From: Hypomyces perniciosus
Taxonomy: Eukaryota; Ascomycota; Sordariomycetes; Hypocreales; Hypocreaceae
NCBI GenBank assembly: GCA_008477525.1
Contig: SPDT01000002.1
Location: 2,480,001 to 2,544,000 of the forward strand
Length of the DNA: 64,000 bases
Reading direction: 5' to 3'
This document shows positions 3,001 to 57,916 of the stretch, piece by piece. The notes below the pieces were generated by a model. It did not search any database and was not told where the DNA came from. It saw nothing but the letters and a program-made list of their open reading frames with translations. The position numbers and the translations under genes are program-made. Position 1 is the first letter of the stretch, and every line of letters begins with the position of its first letter.

Positions 3001-3156
3001 CGTCTCATCCCGCCCTAATCCCAAACAGGAACAGCCCCTCCCCCTCCAAACCGCCGCATCAAGCTTTACCCGAATATCTCCAGCTCTCCCAACTTTCCCA
3101 CTTTCTCTTACCCCCCCCCAAACACAACCCCATACATAAAAACCACCCAATGCGCC
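1..3156. other. No confident gene; probable long promoter/leader region
   Basis: No open frame here has a recognisable domain, and the longer ones start at GTG or overlap low-complexity sequence. A minus-strand frame at about 480-700 encodes a hydrophobic stretch followed by a GTATGT donor-like site near 472, so a 5' exon of a gene lying off the left edge is possible but unproven. Positions about 2030-2200 are a purine-rich GA tract (repeated GAGAAGA units) like those in fungal promoters. Positions 2900-2940 are A-rich, just upstream of LSM7. Confidence 0.5.
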
Positions 3157-3659
3157 ATGTCCGATAGACCCATGCACCGAGGAGGATCCCGCGGGGGGAG
3201 GGGCGGCGGCCGTGGAGGTGCCGCGGGAGGCGCCCAGGGCGAGAGGCCCAAGAAGGAGAACATCCTGGATCTGGGGAAGTACATGGATAAGCAGATTACC
3301 GTCAAGTTCAATGGCGGACGAGAGGGTGAGTCTGCCCTCAGCCATTTGCCGCACGCCGGAGCGCCAGCCTTGCTAACAACTGCTCTCCCGCAATGCAGTC
3401 CGGGGCACGCTCAAGGGCTATGACGCTCTCATGAACCTCGTCCTCGACGACGTACACGAAACAGTCAGAGGTCAGTGGCCCTCCTTACTCCCTCTGTAAG
3501 CAATCCCCCCAGCTGACAACTCCACCAGACGACGAAGGCAACGAATCCACCCGCCCTCTTGGCCTCGTCGTCGCCCGCGGCACCCTCCTTGTCCTCGTCA
3601 GCCCGGTCGACGGCAGTGAAGAAATCGCCAACCCCTTCGCCCAACCCGACGAGGACTGA
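3157..3659 (+). CDS. LSM7: U6 snRNA-associated Sm-like protein LSm7
   Basis: Predicted 123-residue protein from three exons: 3157-3325, 3399-3470 and 3529-3659. Both introns use clean GT...AG borders (GTGAGT and GTCAGT donors) and both are phase 1, so the frame closes exactly at the TGA. An RGG-rich N-terminus (residues 5-30) precedes the Sm fold. Sm1 includes LGKYMDKQITVKFNGGR and the loop RGTLKGYDALMNLVLDD; Sm2 includes LGLVVARGTLLVLVSPVDG. LSm7 is part of the cytoplasmic Lsm1-7 ring, which promotes decapping and decay of mRNA, and of the nuclear Lsm2-8 ring, which binds the U6 snRNA 3' end. It is convergent with PAN3, another mRNA-decay gene, but nothing in the sequence shows co-regulation. 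The identification is strong. Confidence 0.95.
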
Positions 3660-4381
3660 ACAAGTTGAGAGCTATCCACGAAATGAAACAATTATGAACA
3701 CATGATAAACAACAACAACAACAACAACAACAAAAAAGGGCTTTTTCTCTGCTAGATACCCCCACGAAATTTAGGTCTAGGTCGACGAGAAAGTAAGGAA
3801 AATGGAGGGGTGGCTGTGGTGTATTTATTTGACGAAGCTATGACGATGATGAAGCAGGATAGGAGGGAAAGGATCAAGAGGAACGTGTATCCTCATCGTG
3901 TCATCCGGTGAGCTCATGCTGAGCCATCTCCTTCTGGAACCTACACCTACTTGATGCCCATCGCATTCATCAACCCGTAGACACGTCATGAACAAATGCA
4001 TTTGCACTATATATATATATGTATATCTCCCGCTCAATCTTCTCGACTTGTCTCTCTTGCTCTCGGCGCACTCCCGCAGCGAGGTACTGGCCTCAAATTC
4101 ATCCAATGTCAACATATTGTTCAACTCTCATGACCCATATGTTTGTCATCCCCAAGTAATTTTCTCATCCAGGGGGGCGGTAGACCTGCACCACCCGAAA
4201 GCCCATGCACAAAATCCAACCCCGCATATCTGATAACCAACCTCCGAGTCGCCGTACCATGCCTGATCATGCAATGTCGCCTTCTAAAAGTGGCATTCCC
4301 GGGTGCGCCTCATGCCCTGGTCCCCGCCCCTGTCCCAAGCTGTTTGCGCCACAAAGTCACACGATCCCTCCTTTTCCATTC
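3660..4381. other. Intergenic 3' regions between convergent LSM7 and PAN3, with a CAA microsatellite
   Basis: About 720 bp of 3'-flanking sequence. A (CAA)n microsatellite of about eight units lies at 3708-3733, roughly 50 bp after the LSM7 stop. A short AT dinucleotide run (TATATATATATG) is at about 4009-4022. No coding signal is seen. Confidence 0.6.
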
Positions 4382-6589
4382 TTAAAAGCTTCTCCCCGGC
4401 TTGCTGGCCTTTTGCAGGTCTCCGAATGCATTTGCCAGCTGCTTCTTCAGCTCCTTATAGCTGACAAGAAAGCTGGTCTGTTCATCCCTGCTTGTAAGAC
4501 AGACCCGCTCATCGACCCCGGCATCGAGCTTGTTGAGACAACGTATCATGTGTCCCGCATCTAGCACAGGGCTCCCATTGCTGTCCACCTGATGGAAGAC
4601 GTAGTCTCTGAAAAGCTTCAACATATACCGTTCTCCGTTCTCTGACCAGGAACGGTCGCCCTCAAACTCCTGTCGCTCGTTAATCACTCCGAGCTTCATC
4701 ATGAGCCTGGCAATCCTCCCATTTTCGAGTTCACGGAACAATTCCGAATTGAGTCCATCCGCCCTCTGCTGGCTCTGGTCGAGCGCCGCCACAATGTGGG
4801 TTGCGATTCCTTGGATGAATTCATCGATTGACTTTGATGTGGGCGACGGGGCTGGCGTCAACAGCCACGTTATCGTGTCACTCATCTCGGCCGAGTATGT
4901 CCGGCTCATCTGCTCAATGGCTAGGCTCAAGTTGCCGAGCTGCATTGTTGGCGTGTTAGTAGCAAGACACAGAATGGCACGGCCGAAATGCATGAGATCC
5001 TCCTGTTGGAGCTCCTGCATCGGCCGCCTAACATCGAACTGGGCCACATCCAGCACGGAGCATGCATTGAGGCGGACGCGATGCTTGTCTGTTAAGATAA
5101 TTTTGCTCACATCGACACAACGAGCTGCCAGGTTGTTCGAGTGGATTGATTTAAGGGCATTGGCTATCTGGGAAATGTAACCCCACAGCACCGCCTCGGC
5201 AATTGGTGACTTGGCCTGATATCGGTTGCTGTGGCTGGCATTGGAGTTGAGATGTACTTCGGCGAGGGTTTTCGACAAAGGATGGTAATCCTGAACAAAG
5301 ATTAGAGAGCTGTCCCCGAATGCCCTGGTAGTAAAGGCGTCATGAATAGTGACCACGTTGGCATTGTCAACGCGTCTCCATTCTTTGACGGATCGAATAG
5401 CATGCTCGTTTGAGAGGCGAAAGCCTTCAAGCCTCCGCAGGCAGTAGAGATTTCCCGTCTTGGAAGATGTTGCCTTGTACACCCAACTGGGGTACCCAAA
5501 GATGTTAGCATTCTTACGGTGCGTTGTATCCAGGGCCACCAGAGAGTGATAGTTGTCGAGCTGCGGTAGTTGCGAGTTCGGCATTACTTGTAGCGATGCT
5601 TCTGCTTTCTTTTGCAGCTCCTCCCTCAGCTTCTCTGACAGAAAGAAGTCGCGTGTTAAACGGTGATAGGGCATCAAATCCTCTCTGTAGGGCCCAACAG
5701 GGGCATATAGGTGGTGTTGGAGAGGTTGTAAAGATGTGTTAAAGGCGTTTTGAGCCTGATAAAAGGTTGGTCCCGCCGCGCCGGCCAGGGCGTTGTGATC
5801 ATCAGCATAGGGGTTAAACGGGGTTGGGGGGATGCTTTGGCCGGCCATCCCGAAGGGGTCGAAGGGGACTGCTCCATCCTGTGTAGTTCCATTTGAGGTC
5901 GTCTTACTAAAATTAGCATGGATCGGACACGGTATGGAATATGCACTGCACCGTACCGACGAGCTTAGGTCAAAGCTAGGCGTGAATTCACGAATGGAAG
6001 CTGGATTGAATACGGGAGCGTCAGCATCTGCAATTGCTGCCGGTGTGGTTGCTAGATATTGACCCGTCAGCGCTGGGTCGTTTGGCCTCTGGCCATGCCC
6101 CTCACCTCCAAGCCCTCGCGGGGTAAAGGACGGGGCAGTGACGGCCTGCGAGGAGAATGTTGCTTTCTTGCTGGCCGATGATAGGAGCGAAGGCGTGAAG
6201 GATGGAGATTCGACGTTGAGAGACTTCTTTGAGCTAGAGGAGTGTTTGTTAGCCATGGCGCAAGAGACAACCACTAGCACATACATATCTGTTTGGTTTT
6301 GGTTGGCCTTGTTTTGCTCGTGTGAGAAGGTGCAGCCCTGGTCTTCGTAGCGACAGTGACCGTATATGAGAACATTTCGGCAGAGCGTTTCCTTGGTTTC
6401 TTCGGCGCACAGTCAAGTCAGTTGCACGTTTCGATTTGGTCGACCAGACAGGCGTCTCCGTCTCATAGAAACAAGATCCGCCCGCCCGCCATCGGAAAGC
6501 CAAAAACAAAACAACCCACCGCGTCCTTTCGGCCTGGGGGAGCCAACCTGGCGCCGCAGATCGGACGACTGATACCGCGACGTCGCCAT
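4382..6589 (-). CDS. PAN3: PAN2-PAN3 deadenylase regulatory subunit PAN3
   Basis: Predicted 678-residue protein from three exons on the minus strand: 6589-6520, 6399-6285 and 6233-4382. Phases are 1 and 2 and close exactly. The longest open frame alone misses the N-terminus, which I recovered upstream: exon 1 encodes MATSRYQSSDLRRQVGSPRP and exon 2 a CCCH zinc finger with Cys30, Cys39, Cys46 and His50. A PAM2-like motif for poly(A)-binding protein lies near residues 130-147 (APVFNPASIREFTP). The pseudokinase region follows at about 270-520, and then the coiled coil and C-terminal knob. PAN3 dimerises and recruits the PAN2 nuclease to poly(A) tails, starting cytoplasmic mRNA deadenylation. The length agrees with fungal orthologues (about 640-680). 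Confidence 0.95.
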
Positions 6590-26769: not shown

Positions 26770-28035
26770 ATTGAGAAGTTTTAGGATTAGCGTCTCCCGC
26801 AACGGTTCCCAGGGTGCTGTATGAAGCCGAGTTGCATACGTCGATGGTATGGCGTCGTGAGGAGACGATTATGTCAGGCACCATAAAAGGAGTTGATGTT
26901 GAAGAAGATTAGGAGCAAGGAGTTCAAATGGTAATGATTGGGCTGGTAATAAAATAGAGCGATGACTAGACTGATTGACGCGTTTGACACACGTGATCAA
27001 GACTACTAGCATCTAAATATTGTGTCCTTATCCTTCATAAAGTTCAAGAACCATGTCTTGGGAGGCGCAAGCTAGTCTTCGCCTTGGTGTTTTGGCATTA
27101 ATAATGGGCCGACCAGTTTCCATTTCCGGTAATTTTCTCAATTTATAGACGTACCCGTGAGTGTGGACCTTCGGTAACGCCTTTTAGTTAGGCCCAAAAT
27201 CTCTAAGCCACCCTAAAAATCGAGCCACCAAGACTTTTGTATATAAGTTGGCATCATGCTCTGTATAAGCGAACAGACCGGAATATCAAGACATGCTAGA
27301 AAACCGTTATGTTCTGTATAAGAGAAGAAACCCACCAACCTCTACAACGCGCTCCGAACATCAGATCGCTAGACAACCACTTTGACCCTAGGGACTGGGA
27401 AGATCACTTTACCACTTAATCTAACCTAGACTATTACTCTTCGAGTAAATTCAAAGGTAGGGACTACGCCAATGCACTGAATTCCGACCGGGGCCTGGCG
27501 ATTCCTGCCACAGAACCGCCTAGTTCTTTCAAGGTGTCTATTGATGCTTTTTCTGCCAAATCTCGCATTCTACTTCCAGCTCCAGGCGCGGATTCAATCG
27601 TTTTCGAAAAGGTGGAAGAATGCCTATCCAAAGGATCACGCCACTGTACAGCGAGAAGAGTAACAATTCTACCCGTTTTTCAACGTCACATGGGCCCACG
27701 ACAGTCAGACACATACAGTAGAGATCGACTGTCTCGGCCTCTTTGCACTGACCTCTACCGTGGCGAGCCGTGACAGGCAATGCAGCAAGAGACCTCCCTA
27801 TTCCACAGTACTACTACTACCAGCCCAACTCCCTACCAACGGGAGATACTATAAAGCTTAGGTATCCGACTAACCGCATTGCTTTACGAGATAACGGGAT
27901 ACCAATAATGAATACGCGTGTCCCCTGCAAATAATTGCACTGTACTCCGTGCCTATTAGCCTACTAAATCCTTCCTTTCCCCTCCGTACCTTATACAATT
28001 TCCTTAAATGTTTGAAATTAACCCTAATTTAAGGT
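26770..28035. other. Intergenic, no confident gene
   Basis: A plus-strand stretch near 27560-27780 reads as broken protein-like sequence with stops (for example FFNVTWAHDSQTHTVEID), possibly a decayed gene I cannot name. TACTCCGTG, one base off the recurrent motif, is at about 27944. No complete gene is supported. Confidence 0.35.
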
Positions 28036-29190
28036 GTTAAAAAGGAGGGCTAAAAAGCAAGGATTGCAGTGTAATTGGGTAACCTTCCTATTCCGGCTAG
28101 ACCCGGAATTAGGCCCGACGCTAGGACCGAGTTCCTGGAAGAACTTCGGTGTAAGTCAGGAAATTTCTGTTATCTTCAACCATAACAATTGAGCTAGGAC
28201 CAGCTACCCCGCCTACCCTAGACTCAATACAATGGCTATAATGGCTATTGTGAAAAATCTGACCAAAATGGTTTCCTGTTTGTATGGCCGTGAGTCGATT
28301 TGGCCGATTTCCCATACAAATGAATTTTGCGGAAAATAGGAATGCGGCCACGAACCCAATTCTGCCGCCGCACGCCTATTGTTAGGTCGGAGGACTATTG
28401 TAGAAGACAAAGCATTGTTCTACCATCACTTCTACAAATAGCCGCACATACACTAGATATTCTATAGCTTTTCAGCTATTAGATTAGTTACAATTCAATT
28501 GTTCATCCATTGTTAACCCAACTAGACTCTCAGTCGTTTCCTTATTGCTGCGTTGTATGCAGCTTCCTAGAAGCCATACATAAATGAGGTTCAGTATAAC
28601 CTTGTTATTCAACAAATAATAAAGTTATACTAAACTTTATCTATATATAGCTTTTAGGAAACTATATATAATATTGTAATAAGGAAATAACTAAAAGTTT
28701 ACTAGGTAAATAATAGAATAAATAATTGAAATTGTATTTAATTTAATAACTAAAAGCTATAGAATATCTAGTATATATGCAGCTATTATAAAAGTGATTA
28801 TAAAATAATACTTTATCTTTTATAATAGTCTTCAGACTTAATAATAGGTATATAGTAGCAGAATTAGGTTTATAGCTGCATTTTTATTTTCTATAAAATT
28901 TATTTATATATAAAATCGCTTAAATCAACTTACAGCTATATAAACAGGAAACTATTTTAATCAGATTTCTTATAATGCCTATTATAAGCATTATATTAAG
29001 TCTAGGGTAGGCGGGGTAGCTGGTCTTAGCTTAATTATTATTGTTAAGGATAAGAGAGAATTCCTGACTTATACCGAGGTTCCTCCAGAACTCGGTCCTA
29101 GCATTGGGCCTAATTCTAGGTCTAGCCAGAATAGGAAGGTTATCCAATTACACTAAAATCCTTACTTTTTAGCCCTCCTTTTTAATATAA
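28036..29190. repeat. AT-rich element bounded by about 190-bp inverted repeats
   Basis: The left arm (about 28036-28235, beginning AAAAAGGAGGGCTAAAAAG) reappears inverted at about 28999-29190, ending CTTTTTAGCCCTCCTTTTT. The arms differ by many C-to-T and G-to-A changes, as expected after repeat-induced point mutation. The interior, from about 28550, is extremely AT-rich with no open frame. The structure fits a non-autonomous DNA transposon or MITE-like remnant, but no transposase is present and no clear target duplication was established. Confidence 0.65.
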
Positions 29191-30484
29191 AATAATAAGG
29201 TTATACTAAACTTTATGTAAGTGTAGCATTAAGGAAGGTGCATTTAATATAGTAATAAAGAAACAACTAAAAGTTTACTAAGTAAATAATAAAATAAATA
29301 ATTAAATTATATTTAATTTAATAGCGAAAAGCTATAAAATATTTAATGTTTATATAGTTATTATAAAAGTGATTATATAATAATACTTTATCTTTTATAA
29401 TAGTCCTTTAACTTAATAATAAGTATATAGTAGCAGAATTAGGTGTTAATTATATTTCTATATTCTGTAAAATTTATTTATATATAAAATCGCTTAGATT
29501 AACTTCCAACTATATAAACAGGAAACTATTTTAATTAAATTTCTTATAATACCTATAATAATAATAATAATAATAATAATATATAATTAATTTCTTATGG
29601 TAAAGGCTACTAATCCTAGTAAAGTAAAAGGATATTTTAAGCTAGTATTTAACTACTATTTAGGATTTTATAACTTTAAAGGCAAGGTTATTAAGCTTAA
29701 CTTTTATTAGTAAATTAAAAAGTGCAGTAAAAGCTATAATATAGGCTAAAGCCTATATTAAATATCTTTATAGATATAAATATATACCTGGAAAAACCAA
29801 GACTTTTCTAGCCAGTAATTCCTTTTATAACCCTACTTTGAATTATATACTCTATAACCTTTTAAAATCCCTTTATAACTAGAATTTACATAATAGTAGT
29901 TATAGTATATAAAAAAACTTGAAAAAAAAGGGTTAGCTTTTTTTAATAAAAGAAAAACCTTTATAATTAATGCTGTTTTTTAAATATTAATAAAATCAGT
30001 AGGGGCTTAACCTACTATAAATCCTATTAATATTTAATATTTAAAGTAGCCTAGTTTAAAGGCTATTTAGTTTTTAGATTTAGCGGTTTAAAGTAAATAA
30101 TATAGCGCAAAGTTAACTCTTTAAATATACCTTTACTATATTTTTTAACTGTTAAGTTAGCGATAGCCTAATAGCTATTATACTACTTTTTATAGCCTAT
30201 AAAAGCTCCTGCACTAATAAGCTGCTAATAGCTACTAGTGCAGAAATTTTTTTATAAAGAGAGTTGCTTATAATATTTATTATAAATATTGTATTAAGTT
30301 TAAGGTAGGCAGGGAAGCTAGTCCTAGTTTAATTGTTATTATTAAAGATAAACGAGAATTACTGATTTATATTAAAGTTTATTTAAAACTTGGTCCTGGC
30401 GTTAGGCCTAACTCTGGGTCTAGCTAGAATAGGATAGTTATCCTATTACACTAAAATCCTTACTTTTTAGCCCTCCTTTTAACA
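29190..30484. repeat. Second diverged copy of the AT-rich repeat, with internal insertion
   Basis: About 29190-29560 repeats, in direct orientation, the 28615-28990 segment (shared GTTATACTAAACTTTAT and AACAGGAAACTATTTTAAT blocks). About 30297-30484 is a third copy of the 190-bp arm seen at 28036 and 28999, more mutated and again ending CTTTTTAGCCCTCCTTTT. Between them, about 29567-30260 is unrelated AT-rich sequence, including an (AAT)n run at about 29560-29585. Base bias suggests strong RIP. Confidence 0.6.
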
Positions 30485-31208
30485 AAATAAAAAGGGATTT
30501 AAAAGTTATATATTTATATATAGAAGGAAACTAGGACAGATAAATAAATAAATATAATATAGTTAATATACATAATTAATAATCTTAAATACAGTTAAAT
30601 TTACTATATAATAAGATAATAATAGCTTAAAAGCTATTAATTAAAAAATATACTGTTTAATATATAGAGTAACTTTAGCTAAGACAGTTAATCTTTATTT
30701 CCTACTATACATTAATAATATCATTTATAAAATAGCAATCCAATCCTTAAAGTCTATACTTTAATAAGTAATATTTAGCTAATTGCTTATTTAATATCTG
30801 ATACTGTATATATAGGTCAGGGATTATAGAGCGCGGAAATCCGTTAATCGATAACGGGCGCCACCTCTAAGCGTCTAGAAGCCACCACCCGCATCGGCCC
30901 CACCCACTTTTACAAATGCTTACACAAGGACGACAAAGGAGTCTAATAATAGACTAGAGCGGGGATTTGTCATGGAAGACAAAGACTTACGTACAATGTA
31001 ACGGCGTTCCTTAAAGATCATCCCTGACATAGCTTTCATGCATTTAAAGATCAACAGCTCCTCTCTCTTCTAGCTAGAAATCAAGAGTCTCGAGTTATCC
31101 TGATACACTAGGCGCTATATTCGTTGTTTAGCCATCCTCTTAATCGTTGTTGTGTGATATAACTCTTACAACGCATTTTACCAAGCCGTCACTCTCGATA
31201 CTTAGCTC
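30485..31208. other. AT-rich tail of the repeat block, then promoter of the epoxide hydrolase gene
   Basis: 30485-30830 continues the very AT-rich, apparently RIP-affected DNA. At about 30835 composition changes sharply to normal and remains so. The last 370 bp should hold the promoter of the next gene. Confidence 0.5.
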
Positions 31209-53836: not shown

Positions 53837-54197
53837 TTTGGGCAAGAGGATTCAGATATTCCGCTGGAGCCCGGACACTTTACCATCGCACAATCCCAAT
53901 ATGTCCTTAAGTGACCTAAGCTGGTCAAAATATGCAGCAGTGTTTCTAATCTAATTGCCATTAATAACTGGCCTCGGCTGGCTTATATTATATACTTAAA
54001 ACCTTGATATTTACATAACGCTTCAAGCGCATTTACGACAGTTTGTCTTACACGCTGTACGCCATTCTCATTTTGTTCACGACGTGTAAAAGCGAATAGC
54101 AAGCACTCCAAATTTCGTCAAGATAGCTACATACTCAGTGTTAAAGACCATGGAGCCATGTCTTGATGATTTATGCCAGGTATACGGAGTACTCCGT
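53837..54197. other. Left flank of the integrated Rep element
   Basis: About 360 bp of host-like sequence after the PEBP gene. It ends with the perfect 16-bp palindrome TACGGAGTACTCCGTA at 54183-54198, exactly at the element's left boundary. Confidence 0.6.
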
Positions 54198-54410
54198 AAG
54201 GGTCCCCGATCCCCGTGCCCCAAATTGCGGGTACGCTCGAGAGGGAGAACAGCCAGTAGAAACGAGGGACGAGTTGAGCAATTAGACGTGAGGAATGGAG
54301 TGGATCATGTGGTTCAGTGGACGTGATTGCGTAGCTTTCTTGAGTCCATTGGTTGGTCCGGAGTGTGCTAGCATGGAGGATCCACAAACGACCGTACAAT
54401 GTGGGAGGGA
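54198..54410 (+). repeat. 5' common region, copy 1 (unit B), with three iterons
   Basis: Begins AAGGGTCCCC. Three tandem 7-bp units GGTCCCC, GATCCCC and GTGCCCC lie at 54201-54221. Later blocks shared with copy 2 are AGCCAGTA, CATTGGTTGGT and GGATCCACAAACGACCGTAC followed by GTGGGAGG. Iteron arrays near a nick site are what Rep proteins of geminivirus-type replicons bind, so this is a candidate origin. Confidence 0.7.
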
Positions 54411-54765
54411 GTTCTATTAGGAGGGGTGCGCCCGACTTCTTTCGAGGAGAGTGAACTTGGTTCTGTAAACAATCTTTTGAGCGGAGCGATCATTTGAACA
54501 TAGCAGAGCGATACATTGATTGATGCACTAGGTGAGTACCGATTCTTGTTGGACAGTTTGACTTTTCTTTTTTTCTTTTTATTTCTTGAGAAGATGACTG
54601 ACTGGAGGGAGATACAGATTAGAGATCAGCTGGCTGTTGTTATTCACATTCTGTCCTCTGGTCAGCCTGCACCCAAGGGGGATTGATTCCATAGTCTGAG
54701 AGGGACTGGATTACTGTTGTGAGAGAGTTTGGCTGAGAAGCTTGTTTGATAGCTTGTGGCTGAAG

Positions 54766-55392
54766 ATGGAGTCGGATACCAGTGGTTTGTACTTGACACC
54801 TTGCGAGTCGCAGCCACTAATTGGAGAGAGTGGTGTTCATCCCTCTATTGGATCATTTCGTTCGCCGGAATGTGGTGTAGACTGTGGGAGAGTGTTTGCA
54901 TTGAGTCTCGAGGTGGAACGATTAATTGACCATTATCTGCTTGTTGAAGCAGTTCAAAGGATTGTCAGTGAGACTGTTTGTTCACAACCTGCGGGTAGTT
55001 TATCTTTTGCGTCTTACGGCCGTTATTATGGATGTAGTTCCAGGAGACATCGAGTGTATGATGTTCTTTTTGTATCGGATGCTTGTTTTGTGAGAGAGGA
55101 GGTTCGAGACAGACTTGTGAGAGGACTATCTGAGTATCAATCGTCGTTTGGAATACCGGTTCCTTGTATTGACATGTTTGAGACTAGCTCGCCTGTTCGA
55201 GAGTATCAATTCCCGGAGTGGCTACTCACATGGTTGTATAGATGTTCGTCTAGAGTCCATGGACGAGATGGTGAGACATTTGGTAGTATGGGTGATGTTA
55301 TTAGTCTTTTGATTGGGCGACCTGAGGAGATATGTAGTTTCACTGAGTCATTGGTGAGTTGTATATCCATTCCACTTAGTACAGATAGATAG
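54766..55392 (+). CDS. Unknown 208-residue protein of unit B
   Basis: Open frame from the ATG at 54766 (MESDTSGLYLTPCESQPLIG) to TAG at 55390; the frame extends upstream only to a TTG. No intron is needed. The protein is slightly acidic to neutral and Cys/Ser-rich (about 12 Cys), with predicted helices around LSLEVERLIDHYLLVEAVQR and EEVRDRLVRGLSEYQ, an Arg patch CSSRRHRVYDVLF, and no basic N-terminal arm of the sort expected of a geminivirus capsid protein. No motif of a nuclease, helicase or movement protein is visible. Its position behind a copy of the shared region suggests expression and replication together with the Rep unit. I do not recognise it. It is uninterrupted, arguing for recent integration or constraint. 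Confidence 0.6.
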   Translation: MESDTSGLYLTPCESQPLIGESGVHPSIGSFRSPECGVDCGRVFALSLEVERLIDHYLLVEAVQRIVSETVCSQPAGSLSFASYGRYYGCSSRRHRVYDVLFVSDACFVREEVRDRLVRGLSEYQSSFGIPVPCIDMFETSSPVREYQFPEWLLTWLYRCSSRVHGRDGETFGSMGDVISLLIGRPEEICSFTESLVSCISIPLSTDR

Positions 55393-55435
55393 ATAACCCC
55401 CGGAGGGCCAGTCTTGAGGTATAAAAGGTATCCCC

Positions 55436-56010
55436 TTGGGGTGCAGAGCGGCCGTAGGACGCGATGTGAATAGTTACTTCCTAGTGTTATTGTTTAGATA
55501 GTATTATTTAATTATTATTGTTATTATTTTGACTTTATGTATACGATTTAGAGAGAGTATTTGTGAAATGATTTATTGATGATAATGTAGATGTGATGAT
55601 TATTGTAGATAATGTTGTTGTGATTTTAATTGATGAGAGTGACTGTGTGAGATGTTATTTTGTAGCGACCAGAGGGAGCATGCGAAGCAGTCAAGTGGTG
55701 CAGATAAACACCAAAGAACACGATCCTGGGCACGGGGACCCTTGCGACGAGAGGAGCAAGCAGTGTGAGCGTGGCGAGCACTGAGGAAGAGCGCAGCGAT
55801 GACAAACACGAGTGGGCGAGTGTGAGAGGTTCGGAGAATCTCAGTCGAGTGGGCGAGACGGAACAACCACGAGCCAATAGCGAGATGGGGTGTTTAAATC
55901 TGAGTGAGATTTAATCCGGGATTCGAAACGAGAGAGCGTTTTGATGTCACTTTTAGCTGTACGGAGTATGGCGAGTGACTCCTGGGACCTGATTTCTTAT
56001 GTTTGGTAAT
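55436..56010 (+). repeat. 3' common module, copy 1 (end of unit B)
   Basis: Shares with 57560-57916 the blocks GGACCCTTGCGACGAGAGGA, GCAAGCAGTGTGAGCG, GAGCACTGAGGAAGAGCGCA, and an end that runs CTGATTTCT to GTTTGGT. It contains GGGGACCCTT at 55734-55743, the exact reverse complement of the AAGGGTCCCC that opens each unit. Copy 1 retains about 200 bp (55500-55705) missing in copy 2. TACGGAGTA occurs at 55960. Confidence 0.75.
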
Positions 56011-56200
56011 AAGGGTCCCCGATCCCCGTTCCCCAACGTGCATGAAAAGGGAGTGGGAACCAGCCAATAAAGTGAAGACGACCGGAGGGAGCAACACTAG
56101 TGACTAATGCAGACAGACGAGTGGACACGAGGACCGCAGAACCAGATGCGATTGGTTTACCTTTCAGCAGATCCACTTTCGGCCGTACATAGTGGGAGGA
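56011..56200 (+). repeat. 5' common region, copy 2 (unit A), with three iterons
   Basis: Starts AAGGGTCCCC and carries iterons GGTCCCC, GATCCCC and GTTCCCC at 56014-56034. A GTTCCC...GGGAAC pair could form a hairpin arm at 56029-56060. GATCCACTTTCGGCCGTACA and GTGGGAGG match copy 1. A short palindrome GGGGACAGTCCCC follows at about 56211-56223. Confidence 0.7.
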
Positions 56201-56270
56201 CGATTACTTAGGGGACAGTCCCCCGCCTCTTTTTTTTCTTTCCTTTCAATCTTGGATTGTGGACATTACC

Positions 56271-57467
56271 ATGGATACAGAGTGTATAGTTGGGTCGCCC
56301 GTTAGCGATAGCGGGTATGACACGGTTGATCGTCAGTCAAGTGAGGTAGTTCAGGCAAGTCAGGCAAGTGATGCACCTGGTGCACCTTGTGTGCTCAAGG
56401 AAGATAGGGAGTTTGAACTTCAAGGTGTTACCTTTTTTGTGACATACTCGCGGAGTCGAGTTAGTGATAAGGAAGAGTTTCATAGGTGTTTGCGAGAGTC
56501 ACTTGAACCTCATCTACCTGTCGGGGCCGGCACAGAGAAGGCTACTGTTCAGATTTTCGGTAGTAAGGAACTTCACGCGGATGGGATGCCGCACTATCAC
56601 GTGTTACTCTTTTTTTCGAAAAGGGTGCATTGGAGGCGGGCTCGTTCCTGTCTTTCAGTTTGGATTGATGTTGACGGTCGTCGAGAGATCGACACTCATT
56701 CGATTTATATTCGGAAGAAGCGACGTCGAGAGTTGAACGCCAAGTGGTTTGCATGTGTTGAAGCGTATATCGCCAAGGAGGGAGATGTATTCGGAGCTAG
56801 AATTAGCGACCCTGGAAGCAAAGCTCAAAAAGATGAGGTACTGAAGAAGATTATCCAGGCCGAGTATAGGGAGGAGGCCGATTCATTGATCAAAGAACAT
56901 TACCCGCTGAAGTACATCTTCGGTGCAGTTGGTGTTCAATGTTTTTTGAGTGGCAAGAAGGATCTTCCTGCTCAACCACATGTTCCTGACTATGAGCGTC
57001 TTCCTTGGGTTGTGCCAAAAGCGATGCTAGAGTGGCGGGAGAGCAACTTTCCTCCTCCTAATGGTGGAAGACCTGTTCCCTTAGTGATTGTTGGAGAGCC
57101 AAGATGTGGAAAGACTGAGTGGGCGTTGTCGTGGGGGAGGCCAGCTACGATGACTGGCAATTGGAGTGTGGATGAGATTTTGAAACCCGAAGTCACACAT
57201 CTCGTCTTGAACGATATCAACTTGAAGATTTTCCCCAACAAGCGTGATTTTGCTGGGTGTCAGAAATACATTACAGTTACAGGCAAGTATCGGAAGGAGC
57301 AAACTATTACGTGGGGGAGACCAGTAATTTGGACTTGTAATAGAGACAACGATGTAACTAAAGATAAAGTGATTGGAGAGCACTTAAAGAGTTCAGGAGC
57401 TGTTGTGGTGAGACTTAGAAGTAGGAAGCTATATAGAAGTAGGAAGCTATATAGAAATATTAAATGA
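56271..57467 (+). CDS. CRESS/geminivirus-type replication initiator protein (Rep)
   Basis: 398 residues from the ATG at 56271; the upstream in-frame codon at 56259 is GTG. It carries both Rep halves. HUH endonuclease: motif I FFVTYS (residues 55-60), motif II with His-Tyr-His (108-110) in GMPHYHVLLFF, and motif III VEAYIAKEGDVF with catalytic Tyr166 and Lys169. Superfamily 3 helicase: Walker A GEPRCGKT (275-282), Walker B LVLNDI (311-316), and motif C with Asn357 in WTCNRDND, plus the intervening GCQKYITVTGKYRKE block that resembles geminivirus and genomovirus Reps. It would nick the origin, start rolling-circle replication and unwind DNA. No intron, stop or frameshift. A 40-residue Ser/Asp-rich N-terminal extension precedes the endonuclease. 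The last residues come from a short tandem duplication. Confidence 0.9.
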   Translation: MDTECIVGSPVSDSGYDTVDRQSSEVVQASQASDAPGAPCVLKEDREFELQGVTFFVTYSRSRVSDKEEFHRCLRESLEPHLPVGAGTEKATVQIFGSKELHADGMPHYHVLLFFSKRVHWRRARSCLSVWIDVDGRREIDTHSIYIRKKRRRELNAKWFACVEAYIAKEGDVFGARISDPGSKAQKDEVLKKIIQAEYREEADSLIKEHYPLKYIFGAVGVQCFLSGKKDLPAQPHVPDYERLPWVVPKAMLEWRESNFPPPNGGRPVPLVIVGEPRCGKTEWALSWGRPATMTGNWSVDEILKPEVTHLVLNDINLKIFPNKRDFAGCQKYITVTGKYRKEQTITWGRPVIWTCNRDNDVTKDKVIGEHLKSSGAVVVRLRSRKLYRSRKLYRNIK

Positions 57468-57559
57468 TATAGAAATATTAAATGATTTTATTAATTTTGT
57501 TCCAATTGTAATGTGAGCGCCGCAGGCCCATTCATGACTAGAAGCTGATATTCCGAAGG

Positions 57560-57916
57560 GAGTGCAGACTGGCCATAGGACAGGATATGAATATTTTACT
57601 TGGCGTTATAATAAACCTCCAAGATCTCTGGGCACAGGGACCCTTGCGACGAGAGGAGCAAGCAGTGTGAGCGAGGCGAGCACTGAGGAAGAGCGCAGCA
57701 ATAATAAATACAAGTATAGCGAGTGTAAGAGGTTTAGAGAATCTGTAATCGAGTAGGCGAGATGGAATAACCAGAGAGCTAATAGCGAGCTAGGGCTGTT
57801 AAATCTGAGAAAGATTTTCCGGGATAAGAAATGCGAGAGCGTTTCGAGGTATAGTCACAGCAATGGAGGAGTGTAAAGTGACTTCTGGGGACTGATTTCT
57901 ATATGTTTGGTTTAAG
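57560..57916 (+). repeat. 3' common module, copy 2 (end of unit A, right edge of element)
   Basis: Diverged copy of 55436-56010, with an internal deletion of about 200 bp. It ends GATTTCTATATGTTTGGTTTAAG, where copy 1 continues GATTTCTTATGTTTGGTAATAAGGGTCCCC. Similarity stops at TAAG, so the element ends precisely where a further unit would begin. Several differences are C-to-T/G-to-A. Confidence 0.75.

Follow-up and report, generated by a model that had tools for sequence, protein, structure and literature searches.

The 64,000-nt window analysed here (contig C5, positions 2480001-2544000, in the 44.0-Mb, 23-contig genome assembly of Hypomyces perniciosus) carries two tandem units, A and B, which lie head to tail on the forward strand, 2 nt apart. 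Unit A (54197..56007, 1811 nt) is Rep-less and holds an open reading frame (ORF A, 54766..55392) for a 208-aa protein without known relative. Unit B (56010..57911, 1902 nt) encodes an uninterrupted 398-aa replication initiator protein (Rep, 56271..57467). The borders of both units were set by the 5' and 3' ends common to a family of such units in the genome, whose other loci are named below by the contigs C8, C9, C10 and C22. A preliminary description had proposed two tandem units of about 1.8 and 1.9 kb in the order 5' region, ORF, 3' module, 5' region, Rep, 3' module, and this order is indeed present at 54197-57911.

Two tandem units and their genes

Each unit starts with a conserved 5' block, the short common region (54197..54228 in A, 56010..56041 in B; 91% identity over 32 nt), and ends with a 3' module, the long common region (55719..56007 in A; 57620..57911 in B). 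The two 3' modules are 80% identical over 296 columns, and the stretches around them align with a score of 172, where 300 dinucleotide shuffles reach at most 27. Open-frame length was likewise judged against 300 shuffles. That this module is shared had been described correctly. The module of unit A is also 96% identical, over 230 aligned bases, to the copy on C8. For the 5' regions (54197-54442 versus 56010-56232) the score is 44 (shuffle maximum 20), and without the first 32 nt it is 25 (shuffle mean 12, standard deviation 2, maximum 20). Judged by alignment these regions are homologous, as had been claimed, yet their strong likeness is confined to about 32 nt. As a control, the ORF bodies of A and B were compared as DNA; with a score of 18 against a shuffle mean of 17.6 they are unrelated. 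Besides ORF A and Rep, units A and B hold no frame longer than 125 aa, the Pfam scan covering larger frames only.

The ends of the units are asymmetric: the 5' block has an inverted partner about 280 nt inward from the 3' end, where the 3' module starts. A 36-nt box stands ahead of the 3' module in both units (55437..55472 and 57558-57593). Because unit A has an additional, inverted copy in its leader (54641..54676, minus strand, 74% complementary to 55437-55472), ORF A lies between inverted boxes. The box precedes the 3' module in most units of the family and is inverted in the leaders of the A, C8 and C10 units.

As evaluated from domains, alignment, profile and structural model, the protein of unit B is a Rep of the CRESS type (circular Rep-encoding single-stranded DNA; geminivirus/genomovirus-like), with a predicted HUH endonuclease and a predicted SF3 (superfamily 3) helicase in one protein; the preliminary description had named it as such. 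Pfam Gemini_AL1_M matches at E=1.5e-9 (38.3 bits, cut-off 24), and Gemini_AL1 and two further families match below their own cut-offs. At E<=0.001 the Rep has 28 relatives in the protein database, the named ones from Hirsutella, Cosmosporella, Aphanocladium, two species of Tuber and one bacterial metagenome-assembled genome (Candidatus Binatia). Several of these relatives lie on contigs of 1.0-2.1 kb, others on megabase contigs. The entry filed under Candidatus Binatia (P0015, 53% identity to Rep, on a 1-kb contig) is probably fungal DNA mis-binned as bacterial. The window Rep was aligned with 22 of the 28 relatives, omitting the short or partial P0015, P0021, P0023, P0024, P0027 and P0028. 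In these 23 sequences the residues H108, H110, Y166, K169, G280, K281, N314, D315, T355 and C356 are invariant or nearly so, at what we take to be the places of the HUH, YxxK and SF3 motifs.

Searched against the PDB, the single Rep sequence found nothing at E<=0.1, and the profile found geminivirus Rep domains (1l2m, E=2.3e-5; 7vg8; 6q1m). The Rep model (pLDDT, predicted local distance difference test, 82; pTM, predicted template modelling score, 0.54) matched HUH and SF3 structures in the PDB; in BFVD a geminivirus Rep ranked first and a Genomoviridae Rep second (26% identity), at TM-scores of 0.45-0.49. A second Rep at C9:604 kb is 88-91% identical and interrupted. Nonsynonymous and synonymous divergence between the two copies are dN 0.044 and dS 0.16 over 390 codons (dN/dS 0.27), so the Rep protein would have been under selection for most of the time since the copies parted. 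Perfect 18-bp tandem duplications lie at and past the end of the Rep ORF (57416-57486).

The open frame of ORF A (230 codons) is longer than any in 300 shuffles. The protein matched no Pfam family at E<=1, none of 159 protein-database candidates was a homologue at E<=0.01, and the 44.0-Mb genome holds no second copy (next match E=0.9). Unit A thus encodes a different protein without known relative, in agreement with the earlier claim. A structure predicted from the single sequence was not usable (mean pLDDT 39). The leader of ORF A has relatives at C10 and C8.

A family of units with common ends

The family was surveyed in one genome assembly and is known here from chromosomal copies alone. 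The genome contains 10 copies of the 18 nt that open the 5' block, each with 0-1 mismatch, distributed over six loci and five contigs (C5 twice, C8, C9:603 kb, C9:644 and 647 kb, C10 twice, C22:1.18 Mb twice). The remaining seven of 17 matches to this pattern have 3 mismatches, and a reversed control gave 23 matches within 3. A 601-nt query spanning the A|B junction returned 17 match rows, self included, from which 11 whole or partial 3' modules were counted. Both common regions are present in A, B and several other units; some units have only one of the two, and at C22:4.01 Mb the 3' part alone remains. The general layout is a short common region (TAAGGGTCCCCGATCCCC...), one sense gene and a long common region ending in ...TTATGTTTGGT. 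Since the shared ends occur at six loci with different bodies, A and B belong to a family and are not merely a pair. Two variants of the 5' block and its inverted partner (CCCCGTGCCC or CCCCAGTGCCC), compared by eye, match between these two arms in five of seven two-armed units and differ between the arms of the two Rep units.

At least six further bodies stand beside such ends, both ends not being kept in every case. The unit ahead of the C9 Rep has a 240-aa ORF with no likeness to ORF A, and its tail aligns with that of A: window positions 55373-57825 (A tail, junction and B) align with C9 through the junction at 83%. This succession of an A-type tail and Rep may already have existed when the two loci parted, or it may have arisen twice. 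A body called type c occurs at C8, at C9:646 kb and, as a third, degenerate copy without ends, at C9:611 kb. The latter was considered as the host donor of type c and dropped, because part of the stretch preceding the 3' module is present there too. The second C22 unit consists of 122 nt of the 5' end and 47 nt of the 3' end enclosing about 2.5 kb with a 418-aa gene. This gene has seven further members in the genome at E<1e-30, and the stretch matches C5:588 kb at 76% identity over 1351 nt; by these matches the unit is host-type DNA inside unit ends. A 3'-end match at C9:810 kb (3 mismatches) was rejected as a family unit, there being no unit around it.

Three family places lie within about 45 kb (C9:602-648 kb) of one 1.36-Mb contig. 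In C9:641000-650500 (local 3061-6440) a plus-strand unit (from 3061) and a minus-strand type-c unit (from 6440) stand tail to tail at 4698/4703, both cut within the 3' module, which leaves an inverted repeat of about 390 nt. In C10:1836500-1845500 (local 3445-5340) two 5' ends face each other (plus 3445, minus 5340), and no 3' module was found between them.

Nine Rep-less units or part units were tested for open frames. In five of them a sense frame exceeds all 300 shuffles (A, 230 codons; C9:602 kb, 240; C22, 147; C9:644 kb, 183; C10, 195), and none of these five has an antisense frame beyond what shuffles give by chance. The two type-c units have a 106-codon frame (p ~0.1), the longest sense frame of the C8 fragment has 62 codons (p 0.63), and the second C22 unit has 86 codons in sense (p 0.52) and 418 in antisense, the latter beyond all shuffles. 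When 21 ORF pairs were compared by blastp and HHalign, a clear match was found solely between the two type-c ORFs (90%). Shuffled local scores for 15 pairs gave p >0.1 for 14 and p=0.01 for ORF A versus type c. ORF A also matched the other type-c ORF by blastp (E=0.007 over 56 aa), which we discount after 15-21 tests, yet which speaks against calling the two unrelated. On sequence comparison, the unit ORFs show no convincing mutual likeness. The scenario of fast-evolving versions of one gene was rejected, because clear pairwise likeness is limited to the type-c pair.

A profile of five unit ORFs, themselves not proven homologues, found nothing among 1496 candidates at E<=0.1. A Pfam scan of six non-Rep unit ORFs gave no match at E<=1 for five and a sub-cut-off match (E=0.25) for one. 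The type-c ORF carries no selection signal (dN/dS 0.62 in frame, versus 0.65 and 2.13 out of frame). No capsid gene was recognised; a Pfam Gemini_coat search was without matches, and its control was equally silent.

Junctions, insertion sites and a proposed model of spread

Five of the ten 5' ends directly follow the 3' end of another unit, four with 2 nt between and one in diverged form. The exact junctions read TTATGTTTGGT-NN-TAAGGG, the two spacer bases being AA (A|B), AG (C9), AA (C8) and TA (C9:647 kb), and the diverged junction on C22 reads TATATATTTAATA-TAAGGG. Wherever the bodies of the neighbours are readable (A|B, C9:603 kb, C22) they differ. At three of the five junctions an upstream GGGACC(C) and a downstream GGTCCC(C) could form stems of 8, 7 and 6 bp around a loop of 23-24 nt; at the A|B junction (55984..56019) the GGGACC/GGTCCC stem would enclose a 24-nt loop with TTATGTTTGGT-AA-TAAG (energy z -1.1 versus shuffles). 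We infer that the junction serves as the origin and is nicked where TTTGGT meets the TAAGGG side.

One C22 insertion sits at a host sequence that resembles the junction. Its borders are TTATGCTTGGTATAAGGG on the left and ATATGTTTGGTATAAGGG on the right. The left host flank TTATGCTTGGT agrees with the unit end in 10 of 11 positions (P=2.5e-5), and the pattern TTATGTTTGGTATAAGGG at <=1 mismatch has two matches in the genome, both of them the borders of this insertion. In the host gene Pfam recognises a CHAT domain (E=1e-13), and a TPR part stays below its cut-off. The ATAAGG next to this flank may be host sequence too, because it is compatible with the frame of the host gene, which reads FMLGIR where the preceding repeat has VILANR. 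Joining the flanks gives a 227-codon open frame, and joins shifted by 1 or 2 bases still leave 181 and 140 codons. Of five outer left flanks, three have TGGT at the expected place (P=0.013 each), and the left host flank in the window has a weak, suggestive origin-like match of 13/18 (54171..54188, plus strand; P=0.024 versus window host DNA), which lies farther out than expected. The right flanks start, by eye, with ATAAGGG at C22, TTAAGCC in the window and CCGATGG at C22:4.01 Mb.

In our view A and B are probably members of an endogenous multi-component family, mostly of one-gene units, which is replicated by Rep and integrates at origin-like sites. Rep would nick the junction (TTTGGT / NTAAGGG), units would be released and copied as unit-length molecules, and the Rep from B would serve the Rep-less units in trans. 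Units would re-enter the chromosome where Rep nicks the origin or an origin-like site, and an integrated unit would remake this site at its own border, so that further, different units could be added head to tail. The Rep-less units may act as segments or satellites that are also able to carry host DNA. According to the preliminary description two circles had been opened at one origin and joined. Common ends and unit borders at an origin-like junction are in line with this, but a pre-joined heterodimer would give the same picture as successive insertions.

Several observations weigh against this reading. The stem is missing at two of the five junctions, and junction folding energies are no better than those of shuffles (z -1.3 to 0.8). 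The pattern TTATGTTTGGTATAAGGG (18 bases, one spacer base) was composed after the C22 borders had been viewed; the four exact junctions, with two spacer bases, fit it with at least 3 mismatches, and within 3 mismatches it has 25 matches versus 39 for the reversed control. ATAAGGG at both C22 borders fits element and host, and the part that is surely host is the left 11 bases alone. The C22 flank parts are about 1 kb apart in a paralogue, so host DNA would have been lost before or with the insertion; given this gap and the open frames of the shifted joins, we do not claim C22 as a clean empty site. Two of the five outer left flanks have no likeness to the unit end, and on the right flanks the 18-base test used three unit-end bases, half matches being invisible to it. 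No relative was confirmed in viral contigs (searched with Rep alone, two DNA patterns and the 23-sequence alignment), in genome contigs or, by tblastn, in phage records. Finally, the family is seen as chromosomal copies in the assembly of one strain, from sequence alone.

Competing explanations and known systems

Two sharper scenarios, a rolling-circle transposon and a multisegmented virus, are compatible with the multi-component reading and do not exclude it. In the first, for which we see a good chance that nevertheless falls short of even, the Rep unit is autonomous and the others are non-autonomous, with kept ends and acquired DNA, and there is no virus stage today. Copies that are chromosomal only, the host-family 418-aa gene inside the ends of the second C22 unit, the three type-c bodies (one of them degenerate and lacking ends) and related Reps on megabase contigs all argue for it, and there is a precedent in Tuber. 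The geminivirus-like transposon that Liu et al. 2011 describe from Tuber melanosporum has a Rep as well as two transposase ORFs and is bounded by 37-bp terminal inverted repeats; it is multiplied in this ascomycete genome in copies more than 95% alike and, according to that account, with no obvious target duplication (PMC3198968). The present family likewise has a gemini-type Rep in an ascomycete chromosome, and two other Tuber species are among the relatives of its Rep; unlike the transposon as described, it has asymmetric ends without 37-bp terminal inverted repeats, and its bodies differ.

Helitrons are characterised by a Rep/Hel protein, a 5' TC, a 3' CTRR with hairpin and an AT target. 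With these and other HUH rolling-circle transposons the family shares an HUH enzyme, asymmetric ends, Rep-less members, tandem copies and a host gene in one unit. In contrast to Helitrons its Rep has an SF3 helicase and is not of the Rep/Hel type, no Pfam Helitron domain is present, and both the ends (TAAGGG...TTTGGT) and the target differ. A transposon origin also has to face that five significant unit ORFs have no protein-database relative (as searched with a profile of ORFs not proven homologous), where captured host genes should have some, and that ORF A, the sole unit ORF searched in the genome, has no relative there. Moreover, one ORF between two common regions is the pattern of multisegmented genomoviruses.

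The second scenario, repeated endogenisation of a multisegmented genomovirus-like mycovirus with A and the other Rep-less units as its segments, is possible and we hold it tentatively. Botrytis cinerea ssDNA (single-stranded DNA) virus 1 (BcssDV1) is described with four single-ORF segments of 1669-1707 nt, common regions of about 260 and about 38 nt (the shorter with the origin stem-loop), a gemini-type Rep in opposite sense to the DNA-B and DNA-C ORFs, and two orphan proteins of 225 and 270 aa (PMC10731770). Fusarium graminearum gemytripvirus 1 (FgGMTV1) is reported to have segments for Rep, CP (coat protein) and p26 (228 aa) (PMC11708013). The units of 1.8-1.9 kb with common regions of about 290 and 32 nt come near the published BcssDV1 values, and one-gene units, a long and a short common region, a gemini-type Rep and orphan proteins are likewise features of BcssDV1 as described. 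The significant sense frames of 147-240 codons point the same way, as does the structure search, which ranks geminivirus and Genomoviridae Reps as the top two at TM-scores of merely 0.45-0.49.

The family differs from multisegmented genomoviruses in being chromosomal, in having more than four kinds of bodies, in its putative nick sequence, and in having Rep and the significant ORFs in one sense, opposite to what is described for BcssDV1. No coat-protein-like ORF was recognised, although the Gemini_coat control was silent as well, and no viral relative was found in the viral contigs and phage records searched; moreover, these viruses are known as such and the family here only from genome sequence. 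No report of an endogenous multisegmented genomovirus stood among the titles and abstract openings listed in searches of the open literature. We do not claim membership in Genomoviridae. The family shares its anatomy with BcssDV1 and FgGMTV1, as far as these are described, and its chromosomal life with the Tuber transposon. The earlier statement that a two-component fungal element with such a gene content was not known has to be modified, since three- and four-segment genomoviruses and the geminivirus-like Tuber transposon are in print.

A bolder version, which we regard as rather unlikely, would unite both scenarios in one chromosomal multi-component replicon. It would comprise the Rep unit and at least six modules (A, four orphan ORFs, type c), be kept and moved by Rep through circles, use copies of its origin sequence in the chromosome as integration sites and pick up host genes, the multisegmented mycovirus and the rolling-circle transposon being two states of one element.

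Rep-directed integration of adeno-associated virus (AAV) at AAVS1 uses a host site that mimics the viral origin as its target. A host origin mimic would be the target here as well, one of five loci giving strong support and two giving weaker support; AAV belongs to another virus family. Multisegmented fungal CRESS viruses are known in free form and a transposon with a gemini-type Rep is known from a truffle; a chromosomal family with a Rep, segment-like units and borders running from origin to origin would link both. CRESS Rep integration at origin-like host sites becomes a testable question, and the family offers a place to study how multipartite genomes gain segments.

That A and B are the two components of one bipartite virus, integrated as a heterodimer, is improbable. 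The exact head-to-tail A|B junction at an origin-like sequence agrees with it, and at C9, too, Rep stands behind a unit with an A-type tail (83% over 2.5 kb through the junction), an alignment that raised our estimate for it slightly. The term "bipartite" of the preliminary description is nevertheless not supported, as ORF A occurs once in the genome, a different ORF stands in the unit before the C9 Rep and many other bodies (at least six) lie next to family ends; in addition, the 3' module of A shares 96% identity with the C8 copy and only 85% with the module of B. A further alternative, in which one locus was duplicated in tandem long ago and one gene was then replaced, without mobility, would fit the two copies within the window, but it is hardly credible, as the 5' border recurs at six loci spread over five contigs and the bodies there differ.

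Two minor observations concern other sequences. A 451-bp repeat unrelated to the elements is present in four copies of about 85-90% identity, at loci L033 (2114-2564) and L037. In the window, an AT-rich block (28001-31000) has a GC content of about 26-28% versus about 40% in overlapping neighbours, the pattern expected of repeat-induced point mutation or a decayed transposon.

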